From Streptomyces formicae (GTDB lineage Bacteria; Actinomycetota; Actinomycetes; Streptomycetales; Streptomycetaceae), in assembly GCF_002556545.1 (NCBI RefSeq), contig NZ_CP022685.1, forward strand, positions 9,526,001-9,590,000: 64,000 bases of DNA, given 5' to 3'. The notes beneath the pieces were generated by a model that was not told where the DNA came from, ran no database searches, and worked only from the letters and a program-made list of their open reading frames with translations. Position 1 is the first letter of the stretch, and the number at the start of each line of letters is the position of its first letter. A program made the translations under genes and the position numbers. Below are positions 8,903 through 54,856 of this stretch, piece after piece.

Positions 8903-10371
8903 GACGACACCGCCTCGGTGGTCCGTACGTGCAGTTTCCGCAGGCTCTGGCCGAGCATCGCGGATCGGTACAGGGCGCTCGCGCGATGATCGTCCATCGG
9001 CGTGCCCTCGCCCCGCAGCACCCGGGCCGCGTTCTCCACAGTCTGCGCCGACCACGGCTCGCCTTCCAGGACGGCCTCGGTGGCGAGGGCGCGGATCGGG
9101 GTCGCGGCCACGCCGCCCAGGCCGATCCGCGCCTTGCGTACGATCCCGTCCTCGATGTCGAGCGCGAGCGCGACCGCCACGCTGGAGATGTCGTCGAAGC
9201 GGCGCTTGGCGATCTTGTGGAAGGCCGTGACCCGCGACAACGGCAGGGGGAAGCGCACCGCGCGGATCAGTTCGCCGGGACGGCGCACGCTCTGCCGGTA
9301 TCCGGTGAAGTACTCCGCGAGCGGGACCTCGCGCTCACCGTCGGCGTCGGCGAGCACGACCGACGCCTCCAGGGCCAGGAGCACCGGGGGAGTGTCACCG
9401 ATGGGCGAGCCGGTGCCCAGATTGCCGCCGAGGGTCGCGCCGTTGCGGATGAGCCGGGAGGCGAACTGCGGGAAGAGCTCCGCGAGGAGCGGGACGCTGC
9501 CGTCGAGGCGGCGCTCGATCTCGGTGAGCGTCAGCGCCGCCCCGATCTCGATGGAGTCGGACTCCACACGCAGCCCCCGCAGTTCGGGCAGCCGGTCGAC
9601 GGCGAGCACGCAACGCGCGCGTCGCGAGCGGATGTTGACCTCCACGCCCCAGTCCGTGGACCCGGCGACCACGACGGCGTTGGGCCGCTCGCGCAGCAAC
9701 TCCAGCGTTTCGGCGAGAGTGTTCTTGCGCAGGAACGTGCTGTCGTCCCGGGTGTACTCGGTGGCGACCGGCGCGGGCGGGGACTGCTCGCGACGCTGTG
9801 CCAGAGGATCCTCGTCGGTGGGCATGCCGACGGCGAACGCGGCGTCGCGGATCGGGCGATAGCCGGTGCAGCGGCAGAGGTTGCCGCTCAACGCGTGCAG
9901 ATCGAAACCGTTCGGACCGTGCTCAGCATCGGTCGACCCCGTGGAGTCGGCCGGATCCGTGTGCGCGCAGCGGCCGGGCCGGTAGTACTCGGCGGCCATG
10001 CTGCAGACGAATCCCGGTGTGCAGTAACCGCATTGGGAGCCGCCGCGTACGGCCATCTCCTCCTGCACCGGATGCAGGGAAGGCGGCGAGCCGGGCCGGT
10101 CGACGGTGGCGAGGCCCTCGGACGTGACGACCTCCTGCCCGTCGAGCGCCGCGACCGGAACCAGGCAGGAGTTGACCGCCACCCAGTCGGTGGGCTTGTC
10201 CACCCCGGGGCGGGCCACCAGGACCGAGCAGGCGCCGCACTCACCCTCGGCGCAGCCCTCCTTCGTGCCGGTGAGGCCGCGCCCGCGCAGGAAGTCCAGC
10301 ACCGTGGCGTGCGGCGCGGCCGGTGCGATCGGTGTTTCGGTCCCGTTGACCGTGATCCGTGCCGCCGTCAT
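8899..10371 (-). CDS. xdhA: Xanthine dehydrogenase, 2Fe-2S/FAD small subunit
   Basis: A 490-residue subunit combining the two 2Fe-2S clusters and the FAD domain of xanthine dehydrogenase. The first cluster uses Cys40, 45, 48 and 69 (GCAEGECGAC). The second lies in QCGYCTPGF and NLCRCTGYRPI. The FAD-binding PCMH domain follows (VVAGSTDWGVEVN, and ATLGGNLGTGSPIGD for flavin contact) with the CO-dehydrogenase-type C-terminal domain at the end. It passes electrons from the Mo centre of XdhB to NAD+. It is the first gene of the leftward xdhABC run, and its promoter lies in the 550-nt gap shared with the divergent chitinase gene. Confidence 0.95.
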   Translation of the reverse strand: MTAARITVNGTETPIAPAAPHATVLDFLRGRGLTGTKEGCAEGECGACSVLVARPGVDKPTDWVAVNSCLVPVAALDGQEVVTSEGLATVDRPGSPPSLHPVQEEMAVRGGSQCGYCTPGFVCSMAAEYYRPGRCAHTDPADSTGSTDAEHGPNGFDLHALSGNLCRCTGYRPIRDAAFAVGMPTDEDPLAQRREQSPPAPVATEYTRDDSTFLRKNTLAETLELLRERPNAVVVAGSTDWGVEVNIRSRRARCVLAVDRLPELRGLRVESDSIEIGAALTLTEIERRLDGSVPLLAELFPQFASRLIRNGATLGGNLGTGSPIGDTPPVLLALEASVVLADADGEREVPLAEYFTGYRQSVRRPGELIRAVRFPLPLSRVTAFHKIAKRRFDDISSVAVALALDIEDGIVRKARIGLGGVAATPIRALATEAVLEGEPWSAQTVENAARVLRGEGTPMDDHRASALYRSAMLGQSLRKLHVRTTEAVSS

Positions 10372-10921
10372 GACGGGATTCCGCTGCGGCGCGCGTTCGG
10401 TCGGTGCGTCATGTTTGCCAATGTCAGGGAGCTTTCTGTGTGCGGACGCGCCGGACCGAAGGGGCAGGGGCCGACGCGGCCGAAGAAGCGGGCGCGAAAC
10501 GGCACGCGACAGCGGCGTACCGGAAGAGAAGAGACCGGAAGAGGAGAGAAGAGAAAAAGGGGCGGGAAGCCCCGGAATGTGCCACTACGGCACAAACGTG
10601 TGCGGCCAGGCACATCGGAACGGCGTGCTCAGCACCCGTACGTATTCAGCAGCCGTGCGCGATCCGACCAGGAACCCAGGCCGTGCACTGGGCGAGGCGA
10701 CCGAGATCAGAGCTGGTGTACATCCGCTGGTCGCCTCCTTTCGCTGGTCATGGGTCGGCGACTACCGAAAAGTAGTGGCCGGGGCCACGCAGGTCAAGGG
10801 ATCGGACGGGTTCGTCCCTCCAGAGGTCTTGACAACTCGATTGGTCTGGACCAACTATGCGCACAGCAGCGGTGGCCACCGTCGTTCACATCCGCCCTTC
10901 ACCTCTTCCTGGAGGCTCCCC
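10372..10921. other. Divergent intergenic region between xdhA and the chitinase gene
   Basis: No gene is credible in these 550 bases. The region contains a purine-rich tract (about 10521-10560) and a hairpin GGGGC...GCCCC (10559-10573). A small palindrome GTGCC-N5-GGCAC (10579-10593) could be an operator for either flank. The chitinase promoter is at the right-hand end. Confidence 0.6.
10829..10858 (+). promoter_or_regulatory. Chitinase promoter with DasR-type (dre) palindrome
   Basis: TTGACA (10829-10834) is followed about 18 nt later by AACTAT, giving a housekeeping-type promoter. Its spacer contains TTGGTCTGGACCAA (10841-10854), a near-perfect palindrome that closely matches the Streptomyces dre consensus built on TGGTCTAGACCA. 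DasR is the GntR-family sensor of amino-sugar phosphates and represses or activates chitin genes. Placement inside the promoter predicts direct repression by occlusion. The match is seen in the sequence; binding is inferred. Confidence 0.75.
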
Positions 10922-12655
10922 GTGGACCGTGTACGTCAGGGCAGACCCGGCGTTCGCCGGAGATTCGGCGCGGCGCTGGCCGTCGGTGCGGCGGCCGCGC
11001 TCGCCGTCACCGGGCTCGCCGCTCCCGCGCAGTCGGCGGACGTCGAAGCGGCGGCCGCCCAAGCGGACGTCAACGTCGCCAAGAACGCCGGGTTCGAGTC
11101 GGACCTGAGCAACTGGACCTGCACCGCGAACAGCGGCGCCGCCGTCACGTCCCCCGTGCACGGCGGCACGAAGGCACTCAAGGCCACCCCGGCGGGCCAG
11201 GACACCGCCGAGTGTTCCCAGATCGTCAAGGTCAAGCCCAACTCGACGTACAAGCTGAGCAGTTGGGTGCAGGGCAGCTACGCCTACCTCGGTGCCCGGG
11301 GCACCGGAACCACCGACGTGTCGACCTGGACGCCGGGCACCTCCGCCTGGCAGCAGCTCTCCACCAGCTTCACCACCGGCGCGAACACCACGTCGGTCAC
11401 CGTGTACACGCACGGCTGGTACGGGCAGAGCGCGTACTACGTGGACGACGTGAGCGTCCTCGGTCCCGACGGGGGCGGCGGCACCGACCCGGTGGAGATC
11501 CCGGCCGTGCCGACCGGACTCGCGGCGGGCACGACGACGTCCACGTCGGTGGACCTGTCCTGGACCCCGGTGTCCACGGCCACCGGGTACACCGTCTACC
11601 GCGACGGCACGAAGGTCGCCTCCTCCAGCGGCGCCGCCACGACGATCACCGGCCTCACGCCGGAGACCACGTACAGCTTCCAGGTGAGCGCGTCCAACGC
11701 GGCGGGTGAGTCCGCCAAGTCGACGGCGGTGTCCGCGCGGACCGGGAAGGGCGGTGGCGGGGACGGCGGCACCGTGCCCAAGCACGCGCTGACCGGTTAC
11801 TGGCAGAACTTCAACAACGGCGCGACCGTGCAGAAGCTGCGGGACGTGTCGTCGCAGTACGACATCATCGCCGTCTCCTTCGCCGACGCCACCACCACAC
11901 CGGGGCAGATCACCTTCAACCTGGACCCGGCCGTCGGCTACCCCTCCACCGCCGACTTCAAGGCGGACATCGCCGCGAAGCACGCGGCGGGCAAGTCCGT
12001 GATCCTCTCGGTCGGCGGCGAGAAGGGCACCATCTCGGTCAACAGCGACGCCTCCGCGACGGCCTTCGCGAACAGTGCCTACGCGCTGATGCAGGAGTAC
12101 GGCTTCGACGGCGTCGACATCGACCTGGAGAACGGCCTCAACCCCACCTACATGACCAAGGCGCTGCGCCAGCTCGCCGCGAAGGCGGGCTCGAAGCTGG
12201 TACTCACGATGGCACCGCAGACCATCGACATGCAGTCCACCTCCGGTGGCTACTTCCAGACGGCGCTGAACGTCAAGGACATCCTCACGGTCGTCAACAT
12301 GCAGTACTACAACAGCGGTTCGATGCTGGGCTGCGACGGCAAGGTCTACAGCCAGGGCAGCGTGGACTTCCTCACCTCGCTCGCCTGCATCCAGCTGGAG
12401 GGCGGCCTCGACCCCTCCCAGGTCGGCATCGGCGTCCCGGCGTCGACTCGCGCCGCGGGCAGCGGCTACGTGGCCCCCTCGGTCGTGAACAACGCCCTCG
12501 ACTGCCTGACCCGCGGCACCGGCTGCGGCTCCTTCAAGCCGTCGAAGACGTACCCGTCCCTGCGCGGCGCGATGACGTGGTCCACGAACTGGGACGCGAC
12601 AGCGGGCAGCACGTGGTCGAACTCCGTCGGCCCGAAGGTGCATAGCCTTCCGTAG
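10922..12655 (+). CDS. Secreted GH18 chitinase with carbohydrate-binding and fibronectin III domains
   Basis: A 577-residue extracellular chitinase. It has a twin-Arg-like charged N-terminus and signal peptide (cleavage near residue 40, after AQSA). A family-16-like carbohydrate-binding module follows at about 55-180 (NVAKNAGFESDLSNWTC). A fibronectin type III domain lies at about 200-280 (VPTGLAAGTTTSTSVDLSW) and a GH18 barrel covers 290-577. The catalytic motif DGVDIDLE places the acid at Glu403 with Asp396, 399 and 401. It hydrolyses chitin for carbon and nitrogen. GTG is the chosen start because GGAGG lies 6 nt upstream and the signal peptide begins there. A dre site in the promoter and a strong terminator flank this single-gene unit. 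Confidence 0.95.
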   Translation: MDRVRQGRPGVRRRFGAALAVGAAAALAVTGLAAPAQSADVEAAAAQADVNVAKNAGFESDLSNWTCTANSGAAVTSPVHGGTKALKATPAGQDTAECSQIVKVKPNSTYKLSSWVQGSYAYLGARGTGTTDVSTWTPGTSAWQQLSTSFTTGANTTSVTVYTHGWYGQSAYYVDDVSVLGPDGGGGTDPVEIPAVPTGLAAGTTTSTSVDLSWTPVSTATGYTVYRDGTKVASSSGAATTITGLTPETTYSFQVSASNAAGESAKSTAVSARTGKGGGGDGGTVPKHALTGYWQNFNNGATVQKLRDVSSQYDIIAVSFADATTTPGQITFNLDPAVGYPSTADFKADIAAKHAAGKSVILSVGGEKGTISVNSDASATAFANSAYALMQEYGFDGVDIDLENGLNPTYMTKALRQLAAKAGSKLVLTMAPQTIDMQSTSGGYFQTALNVKDILTVVNMQYYNSGSMLGCDGKVYSQGSVDFLTSLACIQLEGGLDPSQVGIGVPASTRAAGSGYVAPSVVNNALDCLTRGTGCGSFKPSKTYPSLRGAMTWSTNWDATAGSTWSNSVGPKVHSLP

Positions 12656-13371: not shown

Positions 13372-13530
13372 CCCCCCACCAGCGCCCCCCGCGTGCGACG
13401 GCGCGCCCGGCTCCGTACCCCGTACGTGGTGATCGGCGCACCCCGAGCGGCGACACCACGTGCGCCTTCGCCCCGCGCGCTCCACCTGCGCATACGGTGG
13501 GCCTCCTCGCGAAGACAAGCAGGAGAGCGC

Positions 13531-14760
13531 GTGAAGATCGATTGTGTCGGCGGAGGGCCTGCCTCTCTGTATCTGGCCGTCCTCGCCAAGCTCCAGGACC
13601 CGGCCCACGAGGTCACGGTCCACGAGCGGCACTCGGCCGGTACCACCTACGGCTGGGGCGTGACGTACTGGCCCGACCTCCTCAGGGAGCTGCGGGCCCA
13701 CGACCCCGAATCCGCGCGGCTCATCGAGGAGCGGTCCGTGTCCTGGCAGGGCGGATTCGCCTACGTCGGCGACCGGACCACCGCGCACGACGGCGACCCC
13801 GGGCACGCCATCGGCCGCCACCGGCTGCGGACCGTCCTGGCCGACCGGGCCCGGTCGCTGGGGGTGCGCATCGAGTTCGGCAAGGAGATCGGCAGCAGCG
13901 CCGAGCTGCCGGACGCGGACCTCGTCGTCGCCGGGGACGGGGCCCACAGCAGGCTCCGCACGGAACACGCCGAACGGTTCGGCACGCGCGTGACCACGGG
14001 CGCCAACCGCTTCATCTGGCTCGGCACGAGCCGGGTCCTCACGGCGTTCACCTTCGCCTTCGCCGAGACCGAGCACGGCTGGATCTGGTGCTACGCCTAC
14101 GGCTTCAGCCCCGAACGCAGCACCTGCGTCGTGGAGTGCTCCGCCACGACCTGGGCGGGACTGGGATTCGACCGCCTCGACCACGACGCGTCCCTGCGCC
14201 TGCTGGAGAAACTCTTCGCGGACCTGCTCGACGGCCACGAACTCCTCGGCCGTACGGACATCGAGAGCCACGCCCAGTGGCAGACCTTCCCGACGGTCAC
14301 CAACGCGGCCTGGTCGTACGGCAATCTCACCCTGATCGGCGACGCCGCCCACACCACGCACTACTCCATCGGCGCCGGCACCACCCTCGCCCTGCGTGAC
14401 GCGATGGGCCTGGCCCGCGCGTTGCGCTCCGCCACCGCGCCCGCGCGGCTCCCCGCGGCACTCGCCGCGTACGAGAGGGACCGCAAGCAGGCCCTCCTCT
14501 CGGTGCAGAGCGCCGCACGACACAGCGCCCAGTGGTACGAGAACCTGCCCCGGTACATGGGTCTTGAGCCCCACCAGATGTTCGCCCTGCTCGGCCAGCG
14601 CCACTCGCCCCTGCTGCCCTACGTGCCGCCGCAGCTCTACTTCCACCTGGACCAGGCCGTCGGCCGCCTCCAGGCCCTGCGCTGGCTCAAGCAGCGGCTC
14701 GGGCCACGCCTGGCCCGCACCCTGCAGAGCCGGCAAGGGGCCGCCGACAAGGGGGCGTAG
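13531..14760 (+). CDS. FAD-dependent aromatic monooxygenase (salicylyl-/anthraniloyl-CoA hydroxylase-like)
   Basis: A 409-residue group A flavoprotein monooxygenase. It has the N-terminal FAD loop VGGGPASLYLA (residues 6-16), the DxxxGAHS motif (VVAGDGAHSRLRT, near residue 130) and the GD motif LIGDAAHTTHYSIGAG near residue 270. The sequence most resembles the flavin domain of anthraniloyl-CoA and salicylyl-CoA hydroxylases. The substrate is therefore probably an aryl-CoA or aromatic acid, and the reaction would use NADH, O2 and FADH2. AGGAGA 6 nt before the GTG fixes the start. A wrecked acyl-CoA synthetase gene lies immediately downstream, so a former aryl-CoA ligase plus hydroxylase pair may have lost its ligase. 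Confidence 0.85.
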   Translation: MKIDCVGGGPASLYLAVLAKLQDPAHEVTVHERHSAGTTYGWGVTYWPDLLRELRAHDPESARLIEERSVSWQGGFAYVGDRTTAHDGDPGHAIGRHRLRTVLADRARSLGVRIEFGKEIGSSAELPDADLVVAGDGAHSRLRTEHAERFGTRVTTGANRFIWLGTSRVLTAFTFAFAETEHGWIWCYAYGFSPERSTCVVECSATTWAGLGFDRLDHDASLRLLEKLFADLLDGHELLGRTDIESHAQWQTFPTVTNAAWSYGNLTLIGDAAHTTHYSIGAGTTLALRDAMGLARALRSATAPARLPAALAAYERDRKQALLSVQSAARHSAQWYENLPRYMGLEPHQMFALLGQRHSPLLPYVPPQLYFHLDQAVGRLQALRWLKQRLGPRLARTLQSRQGAADKGA

Positions 14761-14777
14761 CAGGGAGAGGTCAGACC

Positions 14778-15527
14778 GTGCCCGGCGGCACCGGCAACGC
14801 GTTGATCGTGGCGGTGCGGACCGTCGTCGCGACGCATTCCGGGTCGAGACCGCTGTTGAACTGCGGAACCGAGTTGATCATCGAGAAGACCGTCATCGGC
14901 CACTACCCGGACCTGCCGAACCGCGAGTACGACGTTGTGGGATTCCTGCCGATGGCCCACGTGGCACCGGCCAGGACGCCCTGCGTTCGGCGCGGCCGAC
15001 GGCACTGCTCTGGCCACCGCGGTTCTCCGAGAAGATCGCGGGCGAGCTGATCGCACGGACGAAGACCTGGCCGCGACCGCGCCGATAAGCCTGGACGGCT
15101 GGTTCCACACCGGTGACCTGGTGGAGTACACCACCCACGACGACATCCGGATCATCGGCAGGAAGAAGGACGTGATCATCACCCGCGGCGACAAGACGAT
15201 CAACCCCCAGCCCATCGAAGCCCGGTTGAAGGAGAGCGCGCTGATCCATGACGCGCGCGATCGTCGTCGGCGAAACGCGCAAGTACCTCACCGTCCTCCT
15301 TGAGCCCAGCACCACCGCGAACGCCCTGTCGGCGCAGGCGCGGGCCGAACGCCTGCGAGCCGAGGTCGACCGAGTCAACGCCGACCTCGCGCGCGCGGAG
15401 CAGCTCAAGCACTTCCGGGGCCTGCCGCGTCCCTTACGGGCCGAGCGCGGCGAGCGGACCGCGAACGGCAAGATCAAACGCGCTGACGTCGTGAGGTCGT
15501 TCGACGTACCGGCCGGGCCGGGGGCGC
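14778..15527 (+). pseudogene. Remnant of an AMP-dependent acyl-CoA synthetase
   Basis: Pieces of a long-chain acyl-CoA synthetase are spread over three reading frames. A VGFLPMAHV segment near 14937 resembles the family core. GWFHTGDLVEY...RIIGRKKDVIITRGDK lies at about 15090-15200. The C-terminal AIVVGETRKYLTVLLEP...EQLKHFRGLP...TANGKIKR lies at 15248-15500. The order is right, but the total length is under half of the usual ~600 residues, and at least two frameshifts and a large internal deletion separate the pieces. It follows the monooxygenase by 17 nt in the same direction and faces the LuxC fusion gene. Confidence 0.8.
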
Positions 15528-15552
15528 GCACCGCCCCCGGCCCGCCACACGG

Positions 15553-18156
15553 TCACACCGAAGTTGCCGCCCTGAGATCGATCACCGTACGCAACTTGCC
15601 GCTGCCCGCGGTGCGTTCGAGGTCCCGGCCATCGACGACCTCGACCGCGCAGGTCAGCAGCTCTTCATCGGTGACCGCCGCACCGAGCTCCGGGATCGCG
15701 GAGAGGAACGCGGCACGTGCCCGCTCGGGATCGGAGGCGTACTCCGCGTCCAGGCGTACGGTCAGCTGCTCGCGGGCGGTTCCCGCGCTCAGGACCAACT
15801 GGAGTTCGCCGCGGTAGCCCAGCTGTTCCTGCGCGGCCTCCACGAAGCGGCGGTAGTGGTAGAAGTACGTGCCGACGCGCACCACGTCGCCGTAGCGGCC
15901 CAGGAGTTCGATGCGCGGGGCGTGGCTGCCGCACGGGCAGACGCCGTCCACCGTGCGGCCCAGGTCGCCGATCTGGTAGCGCTCCAGGCGCTGGCTGGAG
16001 CGGGTGCGGCTGGTGAAGACCAGGCGGCCCGGCTGTCCGGGGGAGACCGGCCTGTCCTCCTGCGGGTCCAGGATCTCCAGGGTGTGCAGGTCGGTCAGGA
16101 CGTGGTGCACCGAGCCCTCGGCGTGGGTGCACTGGTAGCCGAGCGGTCCCAGGTCCGTACTGCCGTAGGAGGCGGAGCGGATCACCTCCACGCCGAAGGT
16201 GTCGGTGAGGATCCGGCGCTGCTCGGGGGTGAAGTGTTCGCCGCCGTAGAAGACCTTGCGGATCCCGCCGTAGGAGCGGAGCAGTTCGCTCTGGGAGTGG
16301 AAGAGCTGCCAGAGGTAGGAAGGCATGCCGAAGACCGTGTCGGCCCGGTGGGTCACCAGGGCCTCGGCGACGGCGGCGTGGTCGGCGCCCGCGGCCACGG
16401 GGATCTGGGTCGCGTTCAGCCGCTCAAGGATGGAGAAGAAGCTGATGAACCCGCCGTACATGCTGCCGCAGTAGAAGAGGTTGGCGGCGCGGTCGCGAGC
16501 CGGATCGAAGCCCGCGGCGAGCAGGCCGTGCGCCGCGGCCCGCATCTGGGTGTCGTAGTCGTTGTTGGTGAACACCGAGAGCGCAGGGGCGCCCGTGGTG
16601 CCGCCGCTGCGGAAGTACAACTGGGCGTGTTCGGGCGCCAGAGAGGTCAACTGCCGCTGCACGTCCGCCTTGTCGAGGAGGGGGCCGGTCGGCGGGGCGG
16701 GGATGGGGGCGGCCTCGACGAGGTCGTCCAGACAGCCCGTCGTCCGGAAGGTGTCGTCGGCCTGGACGCTGACCCGACGGCTGTAGCGCTGGAGCGCGTA
16801 CACGCCGTCGTGCGGCTCTCCGTCGTAGCTGTCCAGCATCGCGCCGACCGGGGTGACGCGCAGGGTGCCCGCCGTCAGCAGGGCGCGGGAGAGCCGGGCG
16901 ATGTCGGCGCGGCCGCCCCCGACGGCGGCGGTCTGGAGGTAGCGGCGCATCGGCCGCAGCGTGGCGGCGATGTCCCTGGCGGGCAGCGGCTTGACCCAGA
17001 TGCTGCGGTGCAGCGGCGACGCGGTGAGCGCGGGCCGGGTGTCGGCCAGGACGCGCCAGGTGCCGTCCTCGGCGGCGACGACCTTGGTCAGGCCGAGGTG
17101 TTGCTCGAGGCGGGCGAGCAGCTCGGTGGTGGTGATCTCGGCCTGCTCGGCGGCGTCCAGGGCCGGGCCAGGACGGTTCCCGGCAGCGAGCGCGGCCGCG
17201 GTGGCCTCGGCGAGGAAGGGCGCGAAGCCCTCGGCGAATGCGAAGACCTCATCGGCGTCCTCGGTGTCCAGGTAGACCACCTGCGGGCTGGAGCACGCCT
17301 GCTGGTCCAACCGGCACACGTCGGCGGCCAGGGCGGCCATCGTCACCGGGTCCTGCCACGCCTCGCGCGTCAGATAGGCGAAGGAGATCTTGTGCCCCCA
17401 CTCGATCAACCGGCAGCCGGGCGGCGCGAGTTCGGCGACCGAGGCGACCGCGTCCTCGCCGCCCCACACGGCTATCGCGTCCGCGGGCGCGCACATGAGT
17501 CCCAGCCATTCCCGGCGGGCGGAAGGGAAGCGCAGGGCCACGATGCGGCGGGCGAGCGCCCCTGTGGGATCGGCGGCCGCCAGTTCGGCCAGCAGGTGCA
17601 GCGCGAACGGGGTGTCACCGCTGCTGGTCTTCAGGACGTTGACGTTCCCGGCCAGCAGACCTTCGACGACGCTTAGCGGGGCGACCGCCGCCGCGTTGCC
17701 GGGGGCGATGTGCGCCAGCAGGCCGACGGGGGCCCAGGCCTCGAAGACGGTCTCCCGCGCGTCGGGCCGGGTCAGCCGCCCGGGTGTGATGCCGCCAAGC
17801 TCGCGTCGCAGCTTGCGTTCAAGGGCGGCCCTGGCGAGCGCGGCAGACAGCTCGGTGAGCGTCGCTTCTGCCTCCGCCAAGTCACCGTTGGAAGCCGCGA
17901 GTTGACCGGCGAGTCGGTCCCGTACGGAATTCCCGGCCTCTCCCAGTGCGGCGCTGAGCGTGTCACAGGCGCTCAGTACGGTCTCGGTCGGCAGCGGTTC
18001 GGCGAGTACCTGCTCGACCAGGCCGGGGAGATCAGTCAAGCGGTCAGCGGCCTCGGCATCGCCGATGAACTCGCCCTGCCAGTAGTGGAGTTGGCTGGTC
18101 ACGTCGGCGTTCGCTTCCCTGCTCTTCGTCGTCTCGATGGTCGTCACGGCGCTCAT
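15553..18156 (-). CDS. LuxC-type acyl-CoA/acyl-protein reductase fused to a PaaK-type AMP-forming ligase
   Basis: An 867-residue fusion. Residues ~20-465 are a LuxC fatty-acyl reductase of the aldehyde dehydrogenase fold: VGLLAHIAPGNAA at 144-156, putative catalytic Cys288 in LDQQACSSPQ, and the LuxC end motif HDGVYAL at 449-455. Residues ~495-867 are an adenylate-forming domain of the phenylacetate-CoA ligase type: P-loop YFRSGGTTGAPALSV, SYGSTDLGPLGYQC, and a C-terminal ACP-like subdomain. LuxC reduces an acyl thioester to the aldehyde with NADPH. The attached ligase could activate the acid or hand acyl groups across. It is the last gene of a five-gene coupled operon and starts inside the LuxE stop (ATGA). 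I do not recognise this fusion as a described enzyme. Confidence 0.85.
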   Translation of the reverse strand: MSAVTTIETTKSREANADVTSQLHYWQGEFIGDAEAADRLTDLPGLVEQVLAEPLPTETVLSACDTLSAALGEAGNSVRDRLAGQLAASNGDLAEAEATLTELSAALARAALERKLRRELGGITPGRLTRPDARETVFEAWAPVGLLAHIAPGNAAAVAPLSVVEGLLAGNVNVLKTSSGDTPFALHLLAELAAADPTGALARRIVALRFPSARREWLGLMCAPADAIAVWGGEDAVASVAELAPPGCRLIEWGHKISFAYLTREAWQDPVTMAALAADVCRLDQQACSSPQVVYLDTEDADEVFAFAEGFAPFLAEATAAALAAGNRPGPALDAAEQAEITTTELLARLEQHLGLTKVVAAEDGTWRVLADTRPALTASPLHRSIWVKPLPARDIAATLRPMRRYLQTAAVGGGRADIARLSRALLTAGTLRVTPVGAMLDSYDGEPHDGVYALQRYSRRVSVQADDTFRTTGCLDDLVEAAPIPAPPTGPLLDKADVQRQLTSLAPEHAQLYFRSGGTTGAPALSVFTNNDYDTQMRAAAHGLLAAGFDPARDRAANLFYCGSMYGGFISFFSILERLNATQIPVAAGADHAAVAEALVTHRADTVFGMPSYLWQLFHSQSELLRSYGGIRKVFYGGEHFTPEQRRILTDTFGVEVIRSASYGSTDLGPLGYQCTHAEGSVHHVLTDLHTLEILDPQEDRPVSPGQPGRLVFTSRTRSSQRLERYQIGDLGRTVDGVCPCGSHAPRIELLGRYGDVVRVGTYFYHYRRFVEAAQEQLGYRGELQLVLSAGTAREQLTVRLDAEYASDPERARAAFLSAIPELGAAVTDEELLTCAVEVVDGRDLERTAGSGKLRTVIDLRAATSV

Positions 18157-19340
18157 GCGCGTCCCTTCAAAAGCTCGGCCGCGGCCACCGCGCAGCTGCG
18201 GTTGCGGCTCACCCCGGCGCGCCCGTGGACGGTGAACCACGGCGTGGGCAGCGGGCAGCCGCACTCCTCGGCGGGGTGCAGCGAGGCGAGGTCGCCCATC
18301 ACGACGCTCTGCGCCGGCACGGAGGTGATGTACGGCGAGACCAGGTGCAGGAAGCCGCGCTCCCCGTACCCCAGCGGCCGCAGGGTACGGGTGTCGCGCA
18401 CCGCGGCCCGCGACCACACGGGCACGTGCAACCGGTGCTCGGCACACTCGATGTAGGGCACGCAGTGCTCCACCGAGCCGAAGGTGTCCCGGATCCGGTC
18501 AGGGGCGACACCGAGGAGCTCGGTGACCCGTGCGTAGAACTCCGCCTTGCCGATCTGCCGGTCGGCATGCCCCTTCCAGCCGCCGCCGAGGACGACCAGG
18601 GACCCCGCGGGCAGGTGGATCGGCGGCAGGCCCTGGGCGCGCATCCGCTCCAGGGTGAAGTGCAGGAACGCGGGGAAGCCGAGGATGCGGACCGGCAGGC
18701 CCTCCTCCGCGTACTGCCGCAGGGCCCTGATGCAGCCGTGCACGTCGAACTCGTGGCCTTCGCCGGTGTGACGCAGCGCGTGGGTCACCCCCTTGGCCGG
18801 GGCGAAGTCGCACAGGTAGTTGTCGGTGAAGGACGTGCCGAGCTTCATGCTCGGGGCCGGTTCGTAGCTGTAGAGGAGGTAGTTGACGGGCTGGTCGGGG
18901 GTGATCCAGCCGTAGTGGTCGAAGATTCGGGCCACCATGCGCTGCGCGGCGCGGATGGTCCACTCGTCGAAGAACATCTGCGACTTCTGGCCGGTGGTGC
19001 CGGAGGAGGTCAGATGGAGGAAGACGTCGTCGCGGGGGACGGAGAGCACCTCGTGACGCTTGAAGAAGTTGGCATGGATGAGCGGGGTGCGCACGTCCGT
19101 GCCCACCGTCGGCGCCGGGTCCTCCGGCCTGTCGGCGAGCAGCGAGCGGAAGAACGGCGAACGGGCCGCGTGCCAGTCGTTCGTCTCGGCCATGGCGGCC
19201 GCGAACAGCGCGTCGGTGTCCGGCCCTTGGGCGTACGGCTCGGACACGTCGCACAGCCGCTGGACCTGCGAGAGCGCCAGCGGATCAGGGACCTGGACAG
19301 GAGCGAGATACGTGTGGGGTGGCGTGGTGTCGATGCTCAC
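18153..19340 (-). CDS. LuxE-type acyl-protein synthetase
   Basis: A 395-residue adenylate-forming enzyme of the LuxE family, which activates a carboxylic acid with ATP and transfers it to its own cysteine for reduction by LuxC. Visible features are the phosphate loop HLTSSGTTGQKS near residue 150, DTFGSVEHCVPY, and the C-terminal SCAVAAAELLKG. In the last, Cys383 sits where bioluminescent LuxE carries its acyl-accepting cysteine. The GTG start overlaps the stop of the GNAT gene (GTGA), and its own stop overlaps the LuxC fusion start. LuxE and LuxC adjacent and coupled strongly suggest a working fatty-acid-reductase complex despite the absence of luciferase genes. Confidence 0.88.
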   Translation of the reverse strand: MSIDTTPPHTYLAPVQVPDPLALSQVQRLCDVSEPYAQGPDTDALFAAAMAETNDWHAARSPFFRSLLADRPEDPAPTVGTDVRTPLIHANFFKRHEVLSVPRDDVFLHLTSSGTTGQKSQMFFDEWTIRAAQRMVARIFDHYGWITPDQPVNYLLYSYEPAPSMKLGTSFTDNYLCDFAPAKGVTHALRHTGEGHEFDVHGCIRALRQYAEEGLPVRILGFPAFLHFTLERMRAQGLPPIHLPAGSLVVLGGGWKGHADRQIGKAEFYARVTELLGVAPDRIRDTFGSVEHCVPYIECAEHRLHVPVWSRAAVRDTRTLRPLGYGERGFLHLVSPYITSVPAQSVVMGDLASLHPAEECGCPLPTPWFTVHGRAGVSRNRSCAVAAAELLKGRA

Positions 19341-20488
19341 AGGGCAACCTCGTGACGGGGCAGGTAGGTGGCGGTCCAAGCCGTCAAGTAGGCGCTCACA
19401 TAAGGCTGGAGCGGCCCGCCGACGGCGAGGGACCGGAAGTCGATCTGACGACTCGTGCGGGAGAGCACGACGTAGTCGTGACAGCGCTCGCCGATGCGGC
19501 GCATGGCCGGGTAGACGGCGCTGGGGACGAAGCCCGCGGCCAGGAAGGCGCTCAGGCTCGCGGTGTCGGACAACGGAAGGAGCGTCTCGACGTAGTCGGC
19601 GCCCGCCCGGGAGACCGTAGCCATCAAGGGCTCCAGGGCATGGGTGACCGCCGCCGGATAGGGGTGCACCGCGACCAGCGCACAGCTCCCGGCGACCGGA
19701 TCGAGATCCACGTACGCCTCGAACGCGCCGTCCGGCGGCACCAGCACGGCGTTGGGCGCGTGCAGCGGGTAGTAGCGGCTCGCCGGATCGGGAAAGAGCT
19801 CCAGAAAACGACGGCGTACGAAGCCGGGCGCGCTGACCACTTCGAGGTCCGCGGTCGGCGGCGCGGCCGGACCCTCGGGACGCGCCGAGCCCAGGGTGTC
19901 CGAGGGCAGCACCGCGCCGTAGGGGACGCCGGTGCTGTGCTCGGCGGCGGCAAGGAGCGGGCCGAGCGCGGAAGGCGCCCGGGAGACCGTCTCGCGCCGG
20001 GGGAGCACCCCGTCGGCGAAGCGTGCGAAGAGACCGAGGCTCTCGCAGCCCGCCACCTCGGCGGCGTTGGGCAGCAGGCCGAGCGGCCTGAACCCGTTGC
20101 GGACCACGACGTGCTGGGGCCCCTCGGTGACCATCCGTACCGTGGCGTACACCGAGTCCAGACGACCGTCGTCGAAGGCCGCGCCGCACACCGCGCCGGT
20201 CAGCCGCCCCGCGAGTCCGCCGCGGCGGCGCTCCGGATGGACCGCGAGCCCGACGAGCTTGCCGATGCGGCTGCCGGGGTCGGTCTGCACGACCGCCGAC
20301 CCCGCGAGCTCCCCGCTCCCGTGCAGTCGAGCGGTGAGCCAGTGGGTGTGCGGGTCGGTGATCAACCGGCGCATCACCGCGGGGTCGCTGCCCAGCGGCA
20401 CCGGATACCCGTGGCCGTACACGTCGAAGTACAACTGGCGCAGTTCCGCGATGTCCTGGAGCGCCGCGGGGGCGATGGTGACGGTCAT
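19337..20488 (-). CDS. GNAT family N-acetyltransferase, two-domain
   Basis: A 383-residue protein. The first ~150 residues are a GNAT fold: ITDPHTHWLTARL, then LVGLAVHPERRRGGLAGRL, where the R/Q-x-x-G-x-G/A acetyl-CoA loop is expected. The remaining ~230 residues include VSAPGFVRRRFLELFPD and a second GNAT-like half of weaker pattern. Such enzymes acylate amines or, less often, hydroxyls. It is coupled by 4-nt overlaps to the MFS gene upstream and the LuxE gene downstream. It may therefore acylate or tailor the product of the reductase complex; the substrate is unknown. Confidence 0.8.
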   Translation of the reverse strand: MTVTIAPAALQDIAELRQLYFDVYGHGYPVPLGSDPAVMRRLITDPHTHWLTARLHGSGELAGSAVVQTDPGSRIGKLVGLAVHPERRRGGLAGRLTGAVCGAAFDDGRLDSVYATVRMVTEGPQHVVVRNGFRPLGLLPNAAEVAGCESLGLFARFADGVLPRRETVSRAPSALGPLLAAAEHSTGVPYGAVLPSDTLGSARPEGPAAPPTADLEVVSAPGFVRRRFLELFPDPASRYYPLHAPNAVLVPPDGAFEAYVDLDPVAGSCALVAVHPYPAAVTHALEPLMATVSRAGADYVETLLPLSDTASLSAFLAAGFVPSAVYPAMRRIGERCHDYVVLSRTSRQIDFRSLAVGGPLQPYVSAYLTAWTATYLPRHEVAL

Positions 20489-21858
20489 CGGGCAACTCCC
20501 AGGGAGGCGGCGTCGGCGTGCGTGTCCTCGGCGGAGGCGTACGGCGGGCCCACCTGATCCGCGATGTGCTGAGGGCCCGTCAGGGGCGCCCCCGCGTCCC
20601 CGTCCTCCGAGGCCACGCGCCCACCTCGGCCGAGGAGGAACAGCGCCACGGCGACCGGCGCCAGACCCACCCCCTGGACCAGACACAGCCAGCGCGCCTC
20701 CAGATGGTCGCCGAGCACCCCGAAGACCAGGGACGACAGCGGGAAGGTGGCGCCGAGGACGGCCTGCATCACCGCGAAGAACCCGGGCTTGTCGGCGGCC
20801 GGGACCGACCGCTGGAACAGGGCGACGAAGCGTACGCCGATCACCCCGACGCACCAGCCCGCCAGGAGCAGCGACACCAGGGCCACGGCCAGGCCCGGCG
20901 CCAGGCCGGGCATCCCCAGCGCGAGCGCCATCAGCGCCAGACAGGTCCCGCCGACGGCGGTGGGAGAGCCGGGCAGGCGCCCTCCGGTGAAGGACCCGAG
21001 CAGGGTCCCGACGCCCAAGGCCGCCTCCAGCGCGGCGACGGTCGATCCCTGTCCGTGCAGCACCGAGCGGGTGTAGAGGGGCATCACGACGTACACGGCC
21101 GTGGTGAAGACGTTCGCCGCGGCGAAGCAGAGCAACACCATCCGGATGAAGGGGAGGTCGGCCAGGATCTGTCGCAGCGTACGGTGCCGCGGCACATCCC
21201 CCGGGGCGTGCGCGGCGGGACCGGCGGCGGTCCGCGGGAAGCGGGCGGCCGCGACGAGCGCCGCTGCGACGAGGTAGGCGCCCGCGCACCCGGCGACGAT
21301 GCCCGCCAGGTCCCAGGCGTCGACGAGGAGCGGGCCGAGGAGCCCACCGGCCAGACCGGCCAGGGACTGCGTGGCGAGTTCGAAACCGGTCGCCGCCTCG
21401 ATGTCGGCGTCCTCGACCAGTTCGGGGACCGAGGTGGTCAGGCACGGGTCGAAGAGGGCCTGGCAGCCCGCGAGGAGGAGGGCCGCGCCGTAGATCACGC
21501 CGGTGGGCGGCTGTGCCGCGTACGTCCAGGTGGCGGTCGCCGCGGCGGCGAGCCCTGCCACCGCCGCCGCACCGGCCAGGACACTGCGGTGCGGACAGCG
21601 GGCGACGACTCGGGCGACCAGCGGGACGAGGGCCACCGCGGGCAGCGTGGAGACCGCGAGGAAGGCCCCGGAGGCCAGGCCCCTGTCCGTGTCCGCGGCC
21701 TGGCTGACCAGCCACCACACCACGCCGACCTGGAACATCCGGGCCGCCGCCTGGGTGAGGACCTGAGCGGTCCAGACCGCGCCGAAGGCGGGGTTGCGCA
21801 GCACGAGCGGGAGTTGCTCGCGGTTTCTCGGCCCGGTCGCGATGTCGGGCGGCGTCAT
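20485..21858 (-). CDS. MFS transporter (EntS-like exporter)
   Basis: A 457-residue membrane protein with about 11-12 hydrophobic helices. It starts ...NPAFGAVWTAQVLTQAAARMFQVGVVWWLV, the common start of EntS/MefA-type MFS exporters, and has the central cytoplasmic loop near residue 220. The C-terminal ~45 residues are hydrophilic. Its position inside the LuxE/LuxC operon, coupled on both sides by ATGA overlaps, points to export of the pathway product or self-protection. Confidence 0.88.
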   Translation of the reverse strand: MTPPDIATGPRNREQLPLVLRNPAFGAVWTAQVLTQAAARMFQVGVVWWLVSQAADTDRGLASGAFLAVSTLPAVALVPLVARVVARCPHRSVLAGAAAVAGLAAAATATWTYAAQPPTGVIYGAALLLAGCQALFDPCLTTSVPELVEDADIEAATGFELATQSLAGLAGGLLGPLLVDAWDLAGIVAGCAGAYLVAAALVAAARFPRTAAGPAAHAPGDVPRHRTLRQILADLPFIRMVLLCFAAANVFTTAVYVVMPLYTRSVLHGQGSTVAALEAALGVGTLLGSFTGGRLPGSPTAVGGTCLALMALALGMPGLAPGLAVALVSLLLAGWCVGVIGVRFVALFQRSVPAADKPGFFAVMQAVLGATFPLSSLVFGVLGDHLEARWLCLVQGVGLAPVAVALFLLGRGGRVASEDGDAGAPLTGPQHIADQVGPPYASAEDTHADAASLGVAR

Positions 21859-23117
21859 GACCCCAGCCGTTCGTCCACGACGCGGATGAGCTTGCCCGAG
21901 CGTGCGTTGACGGCCAGTTCGCCGTGGCGCACCCACTCCACCGACAGCGGGTGGATGTGCCCGGCGCCGACCGCGTCGGCGAACGAGGGCCGGTCGGCCA
22001 GGAGTTGCTTGCGCATCGTGTCGGCGAGGTCGCGGAGCCCGGCCGGGTCCCCGTCGCTCGCCAGGCGCAGCCGCAGGGCGTCCCGCCCCTCCCAGTGGCG
22101 CACCACCAGCTGCACGCCGGTCACCCGCCCCGCGACGTCGGCGGCTCGGACGAGGTCCTGCACGTCCTGGGTGTAGAGGGAGACGGGCCCGACACGGACG
22201 CCCTCCTGGGAACGGCCCAGGATGCGGAAGTGCCCGGGACCGGCGCCGGTCCACTCGGCCCGGTCGCCCGCCGGATAGCGCAGTACGGGCATCAGCCGTC
22301 GCCGCAGGTCAGTGACCACGACCTTGCCCGGCACCCCGGCCTCGGTGATCGGCTCGCCGCTCTCCTCGTCGAGGATCTCCACCACGGTGTACGGCGTGAA
22401 GGCGCGGTGCACGCGTGGGTCGGACCCCGGCACGGCGCAGCCCAGCAGCCCCGCGTCGACGCTGGCGTAACCCACCGAGCGGGGGCGGGCGTTGGGGAAC
22501 GCGCGGGCGAGCAGCGGCTCTTGATCCCGGTAGAGGCTCTCCCCGCCGAACAGGAGCAGCTCTACGAGCGGAAGCTGCCGCCCGGCGGCGACGAGGTGGT
22601 CGGCCAGGGCGCACAGCGTGGTCGGGGTCCCGGCGACCACCTCCACGTCGAACTCCTCCAGGGTGCGCACCGTCGACTCCAGGGGCGCGGCGCCGCCGAT
22701 CGGCAGGCGCACGTTGGAGACGGGGGAGCGGTGCAGGGAGTCGAGGATGAAGGTGAAGCTGGCGTACAGCTCTCCGGCGTAGAACAGGTCCGCGACCCGG
22801 TGCCCGGGGCGCAGCCCGGATTCGAGGAGCCCGGCGCCGAAAGCGCCGGTGAACTCCCGCCATTCCTCACGGGTGTAGAAGGAGAACTTCGGGGAGCCGG
22901 TCGTGCCGCCGCTCTTGAAGACGACGGCCTCGTCCAGCGGACCGGTCAGAAGCCGATTGTCGCGCGGCGTGTTGGCCCGCCAGAACTCGGCCTGGGGAAC
23001 GACCGGGAGTTGTGTGAGTTCGGTTACACGATCCGGGACTTCGGCATAGAGTTCGGCGTAGAAAGGGGACTGGCTGCGGACGAAACGTATGAGTTCCGTT
23101 AATGGTTGAACGGGCAT
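21855..23117 (-). CDS. Phenylacetate-CoA ligase (PaaK)-family AMP-forming enzyme
   Basis: A 420-residue adenylate-forming protein. It has FKSGGTTGSPKFSFYT (phosphate loop, ~residues 68-83), a GESLYRD...VGYASVDAG region in place of the usual YG(S/T)TE, and a C-terminal domain ending NARSGKLIRVVDE. PaaK relatives activate aryl or other carboxylic acids to acyl-CoA or acyl-carrier thioesters. The ATG start has AGGA 5 nt upstream; a TTG one codon earlier is less likely. It is the first gene of the operon that continues with MFS, GNAT, LuxE and LuxC fusion genes, and would supply the activated acid. Confidence 0.85.
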   Translation of the reverse strand: MPVQPLTELIRFVRSQSPFYAELYAEVPDRVTELTQLPVVPQAEFWRANTPRDNRLLTGPLDEAVVFKSGGTTGSPKFSFYTREEWREFTGAFGAGLLESGLRPGHRVADLFYAGELYASFTFILDSLHRSPVSNVRLPIGGAAPLESTVRTLEEFDVEVVAGTPTTLCALADHLVAAGRQLPLVELLLFGGESLYRDQEPLLARAFPNARPRSVGYASVDAGLLGCAVPGSDPRVHRAFTPYTVVEILDEESGEPITEAGVPGKVVVTDLRRRLMPVLRYPAGDRAEWTGAGPGHFRILGRSQEGVRVGPVSLYTQDVQDLVRAADVAGRVTGVQLVVRHWEGRDALRLRLASDGDPAGLRDLADTMRKQLLADRPSFADAVGAGHIHPLSVEWVRHGELAVNARSGKLIRVVDERLGS

Positions 23118-23503: not shown

Positions 23504-24832
23504 TCAATCATTAATACGCGTGCCGTGATTCAACTCACCAATGGAATCACCGGTTGGCTCACCAGCGGGCTCACCGGTTGCCTCGCTGATGGGGGAGTGG
23601 CCGAGTTCAAGAGTGGCGATCGCCCCTCCGTCCGGCGCGTTGGCGAAGGTCAGCCGGGCGCCGAGGACCGCGGCCTGGCCGAGTGCGATGGTCAGTCCGA
23701 GCCCGTGACCGCGTCCGCGTTCGGCGGCTTCCGTACGGAAGCGCTGCGGCCCGTGGTCAAGGATGTCGGCGGGGAAGCCGGAACCGTGGTCGCGTACGGC
23801 GATCCGGGCCCCGGTGACGCTGACCTGGACGGGGGCGGCCCCGTGCCGCTGTGCGTTGGTGATGAGGTTGGTGACGACGCGTTCCACCCGTCGCGGGTCG
23901 GTACGCACGATGTCCGCGTCCCGGGCGCTCACTTCGTCGACGCCCCCGAGGCGTCGGACCACGTCGGTCACCAGTTCGCCCAGGGGGACCTCGTCGAGCC
24001 TGGCGTGCTCGACCCCGGCGTCGAGGCGGGAGATCTCCAGGAGGTCCTCGGTCAGGCCGCGCAGCGTGCCCACCTGCGTGCGGACCAGGTCGGCGGCCTC
24101 GTCGTGGTCGGGGAGCAGGCTCGCGGCGGTGACCAGGCCCATCAGTGGGGTGCGCAGTTCATGGGCCACGTCGGCGGTGAAGCGCCGTTCCGACTCCAGC
24201 CTCTGCTGGAGGGTGGTGGCCATGACGTCCATGGCCGTGGACATCTCGGTGATCTCGTCGCGGGCCCGGCCGCGGCGCCCGATGCGGGCGTCGAGGTCGC
24301 CGTCGGCGATCCTGCGGGCGGTGCGGGCCCCGTGCCGCAGCCGCCGGTTGATCGGCTCGGTGGCGAGCGCGGCGAGGGGGACGACGACGGCGAGGGCGGC
24401 GAGAACGGCCTTCACGATGCTGCGGTCGAGGAGCTGGAGGCCGCGCACCTCGGCGCTCATGTCCGTGCGTACGACGAGCACCTTGTCGCCGACGGGCACG
24501 GCCGCCCACATCCAGTACCAGTTCGGTGGCTTCTCGTCGTACCAGAGGGCGTAATCACCGCTCCGGCCCAGCCCCGCGAGGTCCTGGGCCAGGGGGCCTG
24601 GCACCTCGTCCCGTGTCATGAGGTCGGCGGCCGCGGGCCTTTCGCCGGTACGGGCGTACTCCTGCTCGGCGGCGTGCAGTTGCGTGACAGCACGGTCACG
24701 TCCCGCCCGCTGCCCGTGGTCCTGCGTGGCCTGGTGGACGAGCAGACCGATGACCGTGGCGACCGCGCAACAGGCGGCCGCGGTCAGGGCGGCGATCTTC
24801 CAGCGCAGGGCGCGGGGGTTGAGGAATCCCAT
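23504..24832 (-). CDS. Two-component sensor histidine kinase, CseC-like
   Basis: A 442-residue inner-membrane kinase with TM1 at ~11-34, an extracytoplasmic domain of ~100 residues, TM2 at ~138-158 and a HAMP linker. The dimerisation helix carries phospho-acceptor His224 (DVAHELRTPL), and the ATPase domain has the N box (NLITNAQRHG) and G boxes (DHGSGFP, GRGHGLGL). It starts 10 nt after its response regulator. The pair resembles CseB/CseC, which in Streptomyces controls the sigma-E envelope-stress response. No sigma factor is present here, so the regulon is probably the adjacent VanJ-like and carboxypeptidase genes. Confidence 0.88.
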   Translation of the reverse strand: MGFLNPRALRWKIAALTAAACCAVATVIGLLVHQATQDHGQRAGRDRAVTQLHAAEQEYARTGERPAAADLMTRDEVPGPLAQDLAGLGRSGDYALWYDEKPPNWYWMWAAVPVGDKVLVVRTDMSAEVRGLQLLDRSIVKAVLAALAVVVPLAALATEPINRRLRHGARTARRIADGDLDARIGRRGRARDEITEMSTAMDVMATTLQQRLESERRFTADVAHELRTPLMGLVTAASLLPDHDEAADLVRTQVGTLRGLTEDLLEISRLDAGVEHARLDEVPLGELVTDVVRRLGGVDEVSARDADIVRTDPRRVERVVTNLITNAQRHGAAPVQVSVTGARIAVRDHGSGFPADILDHGPQRFRTEAAERGRGHGLGLTIALGQAAVLGARLTFANAPDGGAIATLELGHSPISEATGEPAGEPTGDSIGELNHGTRIND

Positions 24833-24842
24833 GGCCGCCGTC

Positions 24843-25598
24843 TCAGGACCGGTCGAGTTTGTAGCCGAAGCCGCGGACGGTCCTGATGCGGTCGGCGCCG
24901 ATCTTCTTGCGCAGCCGCACCACGCACAGGTCGACGACGCGGGTGTCGCCCTCCCAGCCGTAGTCCCAGACCTCGCGCAGCAGACGACGCCGGTCGAGCA
25001 CGATGCCGGGATGCTCGGCGAACGCCAGGAGCAGCCTCAGCTCGGTGGGGGTGAGGGGGACGGTCGCCCCGGCCCGGCTCACGGTCAGCCCGCGCAGGTC
25101 GATGGCCAGGTCACCGAAGACGAGCGGCCCCTCTTCGGAACCGCTGTCGGCGTCGGAGCCGGGACGGGGACCGGGACCCGGTTCGGCCGCGGCCTCGGCG
25201 GCCCCCGGGTGGAACGTGGCCCGGCGCAGCAGCACCCGGATACGGGCGACCATGACGCCGATGTCGACGGGCTTGACGACATAGTCGTCGGCCCCGGCCT
25301 CGAGACCAGACACGACGTCGAGGGCGTCGCCGCGGGCGGACATCATCAAGATGGGTACGAGGCTCTCGTCACGGATGCGTCGGCACAGGCCGATGCCGTC
25401 GAGGCCCGGCAGCATGACGTCCAGGATGAGCAGATCGTGCTGTCCGGCACGGAACGCCTCAAGACCGCCGAGACCGTCCTCGGCGACCGAGACGACGTAC
25501 CCGTAGCGCTCGAGAGCCAGTTGGACGGCGCGTCGGATGACCGCGTCGTCTTCGACCACGAGCACGCTGACCGTGCTCGGGACGGGGGATTCGGACAA
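24843..25598 (-). CDS. OmpR/PhoB-family response regulator, CseB-like
   Basis: A 251-residue response regulator. The receiver domain has the acidic pair DD17-18, phospho-acceptor Asp60 (LILDVMLPGLDG) and Lys109. A Pro/Gly/Glu-rich linker (~128-152) precedes a winged-helix DNA-binding domain ending VRTVRGFGYKL. The receiver segment LALERYGY...GLEAFRAG...LCRRIRDES is close to CseB as I recall it. TTG is the likely start: GGAAGG lies 7 nt upstream, and the next starts would cut into the receiver. The histidine kinase follows after 10 nt. Confidence 0.9.
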   Translation of the reverse strand: MSESPVPSTVSVLVVEDDAVIRRAVQLALERYGYVVSVAEDGLGGLEAFRAGQHDLLILDVMLPGLDGIGLCRRIRDESLVPILMMSARGDALDVVSGLEAGADDYVVKPVDIGVMVARIRVLLRRATFHPGAAEAAAEPGPGPRPGSDADSGSEEGPLVFGDLAIDLRGLTVSRAGATVPLTPTELRLLLAFAEHPGIVLDRRRLLREVWDYGWEGDTRVVDLCVVRLRKKIGADRIRTVRGFGYKLDRS

Positions 25599-54193: not shown

Positions 54194-54291
54194 TCGTCCT
54201 TTGGGGGGCGGCGGGTCGTGCTGGCCAGTGATGCCGAGTTCTCGTCCTCCTCTTCTGGGTCCTCGTCGTCGCCTTCGTCCTCGTCATCGCG
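54190..54291 (-). other. In-frame acidic extension beyond the XRE stop codon
   Basis: After the XRE TGA (54294-54292) the same frame stays open for 33 codons: RDDEDEGDDEDPEEEDENSA then SLASTTRRPPKDE. It ends in TGA overlapping the ImmA/IrrE GTG as GTGA. Such an acidic tail ending exactly at the coupled start implies the gene once continued to here, or that the first TGA is a sequence error. Confidence 0.6.
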
Positions 54292-54789: not shown

Positions 54790-54840
54790 GTGTGCCTCCG
54801 TGGCTGAACGCGTCACTCCGCAAGCGGGGCGACGTCCCCC

Positions 54841-54856
54841 GTCCGCTGCAGCGGAC
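54841..54856. promoter_or_regulatory. Perfect 16-bp palindrome, candidate XRE operator
   Basis: GTCCGCTGCAGCGGAC is fully palindromic and lies between the divergent XRE gene and acyl-AMP ligase gene. The half-site GTCCGCTG recurs exactly at 54939-54946, closer to the ligase gene. Two sites in a divergent promoter suit an autoregulatory XRE protein controlling both directions. Confidence 0.6.

Follow-up and report, generated by a model that had tools for sequence, protein, structure and literature searches.

A five-gene LuxE/LuxC operon of Streptomyces formicae as a probable counterpart of the leup operon

Introduction

What is the role of a LuxE/LuxC acid reductase in an operon that carries no luciferase, and why should such a reductase be accompanied by two ligases, an acetyltransferase and an exporter? 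The question is raised by five genes of Streptomyces formicae, found at 15553-23117 on the minus strand of the window, which is the whole stretch of 64,000 nucleotides analysed here (positions 9526001-9590000 of a single-contig genome of 9611874 bases), such that the end of the operon lies about 63 kb from the right end of the genome. The genes encode, in order, a PaaK-like ligase, an MFS transporter, a GNAT acetyltransferase, LuxE and a LuxC-PaaK fusion.

The operon is very likely the Streptomyces counterpart of the leup operon, making an N-acyl peptide aldehyde without a non-ribosomal peptide synthetase (NRPS), and is best read as a Streptomyces leup operon that belongs to a known system. 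This reading draws on the gene order, the domains, the conserved cysteines, the homology of the fusion to LeupB and the presence of the operon in a known producer. Judged from the sequence, the product in S. formicae would probably be leupeptin itself (acetyl-Leu-Leu-argininal), a widely used protease inhibitor that was isolated from actinomycetes in 1969.

The operon and its fusion protein

The five genes have the positions given in an earlier, sequence-only reading of this DNA. Their four junctions are 4-nt stop/start overlaps (ATGA, ATGA, GTGA and ATGA), and the genes hold no in-frame stops and have a GC content at third codon positions of 0.89-0.94. With Pfam, no LuxD, luciferase or carrier protein is found among the five operon proteins, and with Pfam and NCBIfam no condensation, carrier or thioester-reductase domain. 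Neither the luciferase LuxAB nor the thioesterase LuxD appears in the five genes or in ten scanned frames on their flanks, the search for luciferase being confined to these frames. The MFS protein scores 115.4 bits against TIGR00900, which is under the family cut-off. The features of the operon are collected in Table 1.

Table 1. Features of the operon and its proteins, numbered from the first base of the window (aa, amino acids).
Feature	Position	Strand	Evidence and proposed role
PaaK-like adenylate-forming ligase, 420 aa	21855-23117	-	ATG start; AMP-binding Pfam match, 31.7 bits; proposed amide ligase, presumed LeupC counterpart
MFS transporter, 457 aa	20485-21858	-	ATG start; MFS_1, 72.4 bits; proposed exporter
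GNAT acetyltransferase, 383 aa	19337-20488	-	ATG start; Acetyltransf_1, 31.8 bits; proposed leucine N-acetyltransferase, presumed LeupD counterpart
LuxE-type acyl-protein synthetase, 395 aa	18153-19340	-	GTG start; LuxE Pfam match, 88.5 bits; presumed LeupA counterpart
LuxC-PaaK fusion, 867 aa	15553-18156	-	ATG start; LuxC and AMP-binding Pfam matches; LeupB counterpart
LuxC reductase domain of fusion, residues 55-460	16777-17994	-	PF05893, 276.4 bits; match to 7xc6_A, E 1.1e-13
PaaK-like ligase domain of fusion, about residues 488-863	15568-16695	-	NF041878 matched at 82-426 of 427; matches to 4r1l and 2y27
LuxE Cys383 codon, presumed acyl-acceptor	18192-18194	-	Invariant in 15/15 aligned LuxE; aligned with Cys of 7xc6_E
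LuxC Cys288 codon, presumed catalytic	17293-17295	-	Aligned with Cys of DQQAC in 7xc6_A; invariant in 29 aligned fusions

The second adenylate-forming domain that had been proposed to be joined to LuxC is borne out by a profile search of the fusion, in which the LuxC match is followed by an AMP-binding match of 45.3 bits at residues 500-716. The ligase half matches PaaK models only from about position 80 to the model end, and thus lacks some 60-80 of the residues with which a free PaaK starts. It keeps SGGTTG at 517 and SGKL at 852, and in the first-gene ligase the same motifs are found at residue 69 and, near the C-terminus, at 407; these are taken to be the P-loop and the C-terminal lysine motif of the ligases. 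That the fusion might be an artefact of assembly was considered and rejected, as the 120 listed of 785 matches are all 797-889 aa in length and come from many records. PaaK-family enzymes are also known in other natural-product pathways as the BagE/FevW synthetases, to which the NCBIfam matches are weak (59.6 bits for the fusion and 23.2 bits for the first gene, against a cut-off of 800), and the excerpts of the bagremycin and ferroverdin literature offered no useful link to the operon.

Relationship to the leup operon

A search of plasmid proteins with the window LuxE returned two Salmonella plasmids at 53% identity and two more with a partial gene at 49%; other matches outside Streptomyces and Streptantibioticus were at 40% for one Chloroflexota plasmid and at no more than 26% for the rest. 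In the Salmonella plasmids the genes run LuxE, an 802-aa LuxC-PaaK fusion, a PaaK-like ligase and a GNAT protein, the last being intact in CP054717, where the four genes span 5759 bp, compared with 5831 bp for leupABCD (PMC8283571). Over 375 aligned positions the LuxE proteins of the window and the Salmonella plasmid are 53.1% identical, with the fusion adjoining LuxE in both, and the first-gene PaaK is 40.6% identical to its Salmonella equivalent over 421 aligned positions.

The published operon lies at 315353-321183 of K. michiganensis CAV1374, adjoining a transporter, and within the K. oxytoca complex the leup genes are found in K. michiganensis (PMC8283571). When the Salmonella fusion is used as the query, the best 120 of 554 matches include full-length proteins from K. 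michiganensis, Erwinia, Morganella, Providencia and Yersinia rochesterensis, together with others from Chromobacterium, Chitinimonas, Janthinobacterium and further genera; in a DNA search the Salmonella LuxE-fusion stretch had no match in E. coli genomes. The window fusion itself is 41.3% identical to the K. michiganensis fusion P0212 over 762 aligned positions.

The published leupB reverse primer (PMC8283571), when complemented, encodes EQLKDH, and this peptide is found at residue 47 in 64 of the 68 Klebsiella-type fusions P0211-P0278 (40 of which, by our own count, are named Klebsiella) and also in 2 of 246 other proteins. Since the peptide is present in the K. michiganensis fusions, that fusion is LeupB. 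The joining of LuxC to PaaK, a layout that the sequence-only reading did not recognise, was thus already known as LeupB of the characterised leupeptin operon. By a calculation made by hand, the leupA forward primer and the computed start of leupB lie about 1.08 kb apart; the size and position of leupA fit LuxE, and leupA is inferred to be the LuxE gene.

How, then, does the Streptomyces operon compare with leupABCD as known from K. michiganensis and Xenorhabdus bovienii? The fusion is common to the window and Klebsiella, and the likeness extends to LuxE and a second PaaK as judged from the Salmonella copy, which also encodes a GNAT protein, though one of only 25% identity to that of the window. 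A transporter is also common, as an MFS gene within the window operon and as an adjacent gene in leup, the Klebsiella transporter being compared by description only. The operons differ in that the order is PaaK-MFS-GNAT-LuxE-fusion in Streptomyces and LuxE-fusion-PaaK-GNAT in Salmonella, the Streptomyces GNAT is longer, and 4-nt overlaps occur throughout in Streptomyces. A 121-aa frame before LuxE in both Salmonella plasmids looks by eye like an MFS remnant and has no Pfam match. In Salmonella plasmid CP053580 the GNAT gene reads as two overlapping frames (L104 12872-13755).

Catalytic residues and a proposed pathway

The two cysteines that the sequence-only reading had singled out both align with the residues expected of them. 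Cys288 of the fusion sits in DQQACSSPQ, aligns with the DQQAC cysteine of 7xc6_A, a LuxC chain of solved structure, and is conserved across both the actinobacterial and the proteobacterial fusions aligned. Cys383 of LuxE is unchanged in an alignment that includes one Salmonella and one Chloroflexota sequence, and a profile of those 15 proteins aligns it with the C-terminal cysteine of the solved LuxE chain 7xc6_E (chain position 364 by our own count). These positions are taken to be the acyl-acceptor cysteines of LuxC and LuxE.

To make leupeptin (Ac-Leu-Leu-Arg-al), one N-acetyl group has to be added, two peptide bonds formed, one reduction carried out and the product exported. The genes of the operon fit this list, with a single GNAT for the acetylation, two PaaK-like ligases for the bonds, a LuxE/LuxC pair for the reduction and an MFS protein for the export. 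In S. formicae the GNAT protein would acetylate leucine, after which the first-gene ligase and the C-terminal half of the fusion would each activate an N-acylated acid by adenylation and couple it with the amino group of the following amino acid, so that two peptide bonds are formed; the fusion of one ligase to the reductase suggests that the fused ligase makes the last bond. LuxE would then adenylate the free C-terminal carboxylate and pass the acyl group onto Cys383, from which LuxC would take it on Cys288 and reduce it with NADPH to the aldehyde, and the MFS protein would export the product. The older enzymology of S. roseus is reported to include a leucine acyltransferase, an ATP-dependent leupeptin acid synthetase and an ATP- and NADPH-dependent leupeptin acid reductase. 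For X. bovienii leupeptin, separate AMP-dependent ligases are described as forming the amide bonds and a reductase as forming the aldehyde (PMC11212599, summarising Li et al. 2020).

The three acid-activating modules that had been pointed out are indeed present, and are best read as two amide ligases and one activator for reduction, such that the substrates are likely to be amino acids and peptides and not a generic carboxylic acid. The idea of a dedicated route from acid to aldehyde stands in its outline, with an exported small natural product as its probable outcome, and is altered in its substrate. The suggestion that this product might be a signal finds no pointer in the present data for Streptomyces, although a pyrazinone derived from leupeptin acts as a signal in Klebsiella (PMC11480411). 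The operon is an example of how the work of an NRPS could be taken over by a pair of simple ligases together with LuxE and LuxC.

Conservation in Actinobacteria

Genome contigs were scanned with an alignment of 13 fusions, giving 396 coding matches from which the best 80 were kept as loci. These are mostly from Streptomyces, with some from Kitasatospora and Streptantibioticus and one record each of Streptosporangium and an Actinobacteria bacterium. The five-gene grouping seen in the window is retained on one strand and in the same order in 75 of the 80, which is more than chance would give. Of the five exceptions, three have lost genes at a contig edge (L055, L069 and L089) and two have no MFS match between ligase and GNAT (L080 and L082). 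The 4-nt overlaps recur at the four junctions in 56/74, 72/76, 45/75 and 38/78 loci, counts that are rough as the start codons were picked automatically.

Of 238 genomes drawn evenly from the genus, that of S. formicae among them, 26 have a LuxE match at E 1e-40 or better, and one of these matches, that in G003 at 54% identity, is of a divergent unfused type. The neighbourhood was surveyed for 4 kb on each side using open frames of at least 150 codons (77 upstream and 76 downstream stretches), and within that distance any one neighbour family is shared by at most 7 of the 80 loci. Together, these results describe the operon as an occasional, self-contained cassette.

Two candidates for the control of the operon were rejected. 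A histidine kinase and response regulator are encoded upstream on the same strand (23504-25598), and this pair is not conserved beside the operon in relatives. Control by bldA through a TTA codon at residue 6 of the first gene was likewise set aside, TTA occurring in that gene in only 4/77 relatives. Elsewhere, LuxE of the leup type is encoded twice in the Streptomyces genome G211 (77% and 61% identity to the window LuxE), which may point to a second operon that has diverged. In one plasmid of Streptomyces the operon is followed immediately downstream by three genes of peptidase inhibitor family I36 (L107 12458-13825).

Leupeptin producers and the NRPS question

Is the operon present where leupeptin is made? 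S. roseus ATCC 31245 has been used as a leupeptin producer (PMC10548850), and its locus (L078) holds all five genes with four 4-nt overlaps, the proteins being 55-75% identical to those of the window. Leupeptin masses are reported in other strains of the operon-carrying species S. virginiae, tentatively, and S. anandii. In S. xanthophaeus a phosphopantetheinyl transferase mutant gave acetyl-Leu-Leu and propionyl-Leu-Leu (PMC9769936), the former being, as the authors note, considered a degradation product of leupeptin. That it was formed in such a mutant would be in keeping with a route free of carriers, but further transferases of this kind may be present. Overall, four of the eight named Streptomyces species reported with leupeptin or acetyl-Leu-Leu are among the best 80 of 396 loci.

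A product of the same class that is not leupeptin, with other amino acids, a dipeptide backbone or another acyl cap such as propionyl, is a rather unlikely alternative. The 55-75% identity to the S. roseus proteins leaves room for altered specificity, a leupeptin analogue with lysine is among the products of K. oxytoca (PMC11480411), and the propionyl-Leu-Leu of S. xanthophaeus (PMC9769936) would fit a change of cap. However, the species with leupeptin masses lie at different distances from the window by LuxE, S. anandii being nearer and S. roseus and S. virginiae farther, and the Klebsiella operon, which is more distant still, makes leupeptin.

It is improbable that Streptomyces leupeptin comes from NRPSs with a terminal reductase while the conserved operon makes something else, even though two papers (PMC10548850 and PMC11212599) still tie Streptomyces leupeptin to NRPSs. 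Known NRPS peptide aldehydes (antipain, MAPI and livipeptin) share with the proposed product the class of acyl-peptide aldehyde protease inhibitors, and the window operon differs in having no condensation, carrier or thioester-reductase domain. Thioester reductases were sought with TIGR01746 at a cut-off of 213 bits. The draft genome of S. roseus ATCC 31245 contains no such domain over the cut-off, its best score of 66.5 bits belonging to an epimerase-like domain beside an adenylation-carrier protein, whereas the control genome of S. noursei B-3066 (L082) gave four at 284-330 bits in long frames of 1113-2292 aa that may belong to NRPSs. An NRPS was on these grounds rejected as the source of S. 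roseus leupeptin. In the genomes of S. virginiae and S. xanthophaeus, too, no thioester reductase is found over the cut-off (best 53.7 and 61.8 bits). The identity of the window fusion as the LeupB counterpart also counts against an NRPS origin, and in its favour the host genome carries two thioester-reductase domains over the cut-off. These lie at G000:C1:9417697-9418806 and 7867905-7868825, and may belong to further peptide-aldehyde or peptide-alcohol pathways.

A number of points weigh against the operon being a leup operon that makes leupeptin. With regard to the enterobacterial comparison, (i) the GNAT proteins of the window and the Salmonella plasmid share only 25% identity, albeit with a GNAT domain in both; (ii) the counterparts of LeupA, LeupC and LeupD are presumed, having been judged from Salmonella plasmid copies and not from K. 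michiganensis sequences; (iii) the peptide MKIAIHN, read by eye from the leupA_f primer, is absent from the three frames around the Salmonella LuxE; and (iv) the gene order is unlike that of the enterobacterial operon, the adjacency of LuxE and the fusion alone being common with the Salmonella copies, though gene order is not a defining enzymatic feature of a leup operon. With regard to the producers, the metabolite strains of S. virginiae, S. anandii and S. xanthophaeus differ from the strains with loci; S. exfoliatus, S. griseus, S. lavendulae and S. erythrochromogenes, from among the species reported, are not in the best 80 of 396 loci; and in S. anandii the genomic match to a thioester reductase is split into parts of 194 and 35 bits, both under the cut-off. 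Moreover, the leupeptin of one isolate is attributed to an antipain NRPS (PMC11212599), and NRPS routes are cited for Streptomyces leupeptin (PMC10548850).

An assignment of this operon to actinomycete leupeptin was not found in the searches made of the open literature; subscription papers were not covered, and the assignment is not claimed to be unpublished. The operon, as a Streptomyces leup operon, offers a concrete five-gene candidate for actinomycete leupeptin that is present in S. roseus ATCC 31245, and its LuxC-PaaK fusion provides a search profile for peptide-aldehyde clusters that NRPS-based mining may miss. A LuxE/LuxC reductase directed at peptides would, if the reading is true, also be a useful biocatalyst.

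Relationships of LuxE and LuxC

The best-known substrates of the LuxE, LuxC and PaaK families are fatty and aromatic acids. The window LuxE is 22-26% identical to the four non-leup LuxE proteins compared, and for LuxE and LuxC together the range is 22-27%. In the LuxE tree the Streptomyces, Salmonella and Chloroflexota proteins stand apart from the luminescence, Priestia, Rhizobium and Ponticoccus forms (support 97/97), and the LuxC tree gives the same separation with weaker support (82/85); the trees are midpoint rooted with several long deep branches, and the placement of the Salmonella LuxE is unsure. The window operon shares with the LuxC-LuxE fatty acid reductase complex (PDB 7xc6) the activation by LuxE, the reduction by LuxC and the two aligned cysteines, and differs from it in these low identities, in the PaaK domain fused to LuxC and in having no luciferase or LuxD. 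A general pathway for the reduction of fatty or aryl acids, be it a luciferase-free lux-like supply of aldehyde or a GriC/GriD-like acid reductase, would agree with those familiar substrates but is highly improbable, given that the window LuxE and LuxC group with leup-type proteins and that the operon has no LuxD, luciferase or carrier protein; an origin in fatty-aldehyde or bioluminescence metabolism was rejected on the same identities and missing partners.

Within the LuxC tree the fused proteins of Proteobacteria form one group (86/99), and the unfused LuxC of loci L105 and L108 groups with the fused Streptomyces LuxC (86/89), a position from which it is possible that the ligase domain was lost or that fusion happened twice. 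The L105 pair (7110-11519), on the S. europaeiscabiei plasmid NZ_CP109155.1, is 51% (LuxE) and 46% (LuxC) identical to the window proteins. It follows directly on genes for an MNIO enzyme (MbnB/TglH/ChrH) and an MBL-fold protein and on an open reading frame of 51 aa, all upstream of it, with a YcaO-like gene on the opposite strand, and the product of this cluster is possibly a ribosomal peptide with a C-terminal aldehyde. A second unfused pair of the same divergent type is found in genome G003 (L108 8147-10722), with no MNIO enzyme in the four neighbouring frames scanned. It may tentatively be proposed, as one joint picture, that the classical leupeptin of actinomycetes has its genetic basis, so far unreported, in this operon family, which about a tenth of Streptomyces species would carry, and that LuxE/LuxC is a portable peptide-carboxylate reductase, which has also been recruited without the ligase domain into the MNIO cluster of L105 for a ribosomal peptide ending in an aldehyde.

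Other features of the window

On the plus strand, frames at 13393-15817 match a portion of a FAD_binding_3 protein and the C-terminal end of an AMP-binding enzyme; these are apparent remains, directed at the 3' end of the operon. A separate region of biosynthetic appearance occupies 50834-63998, with an adenylation enzyme, a carrier protein, a DegT aminotransferase, a nucleotidyl transferase, the start of a B12-binding/radical SAM protein and an MFS protein.

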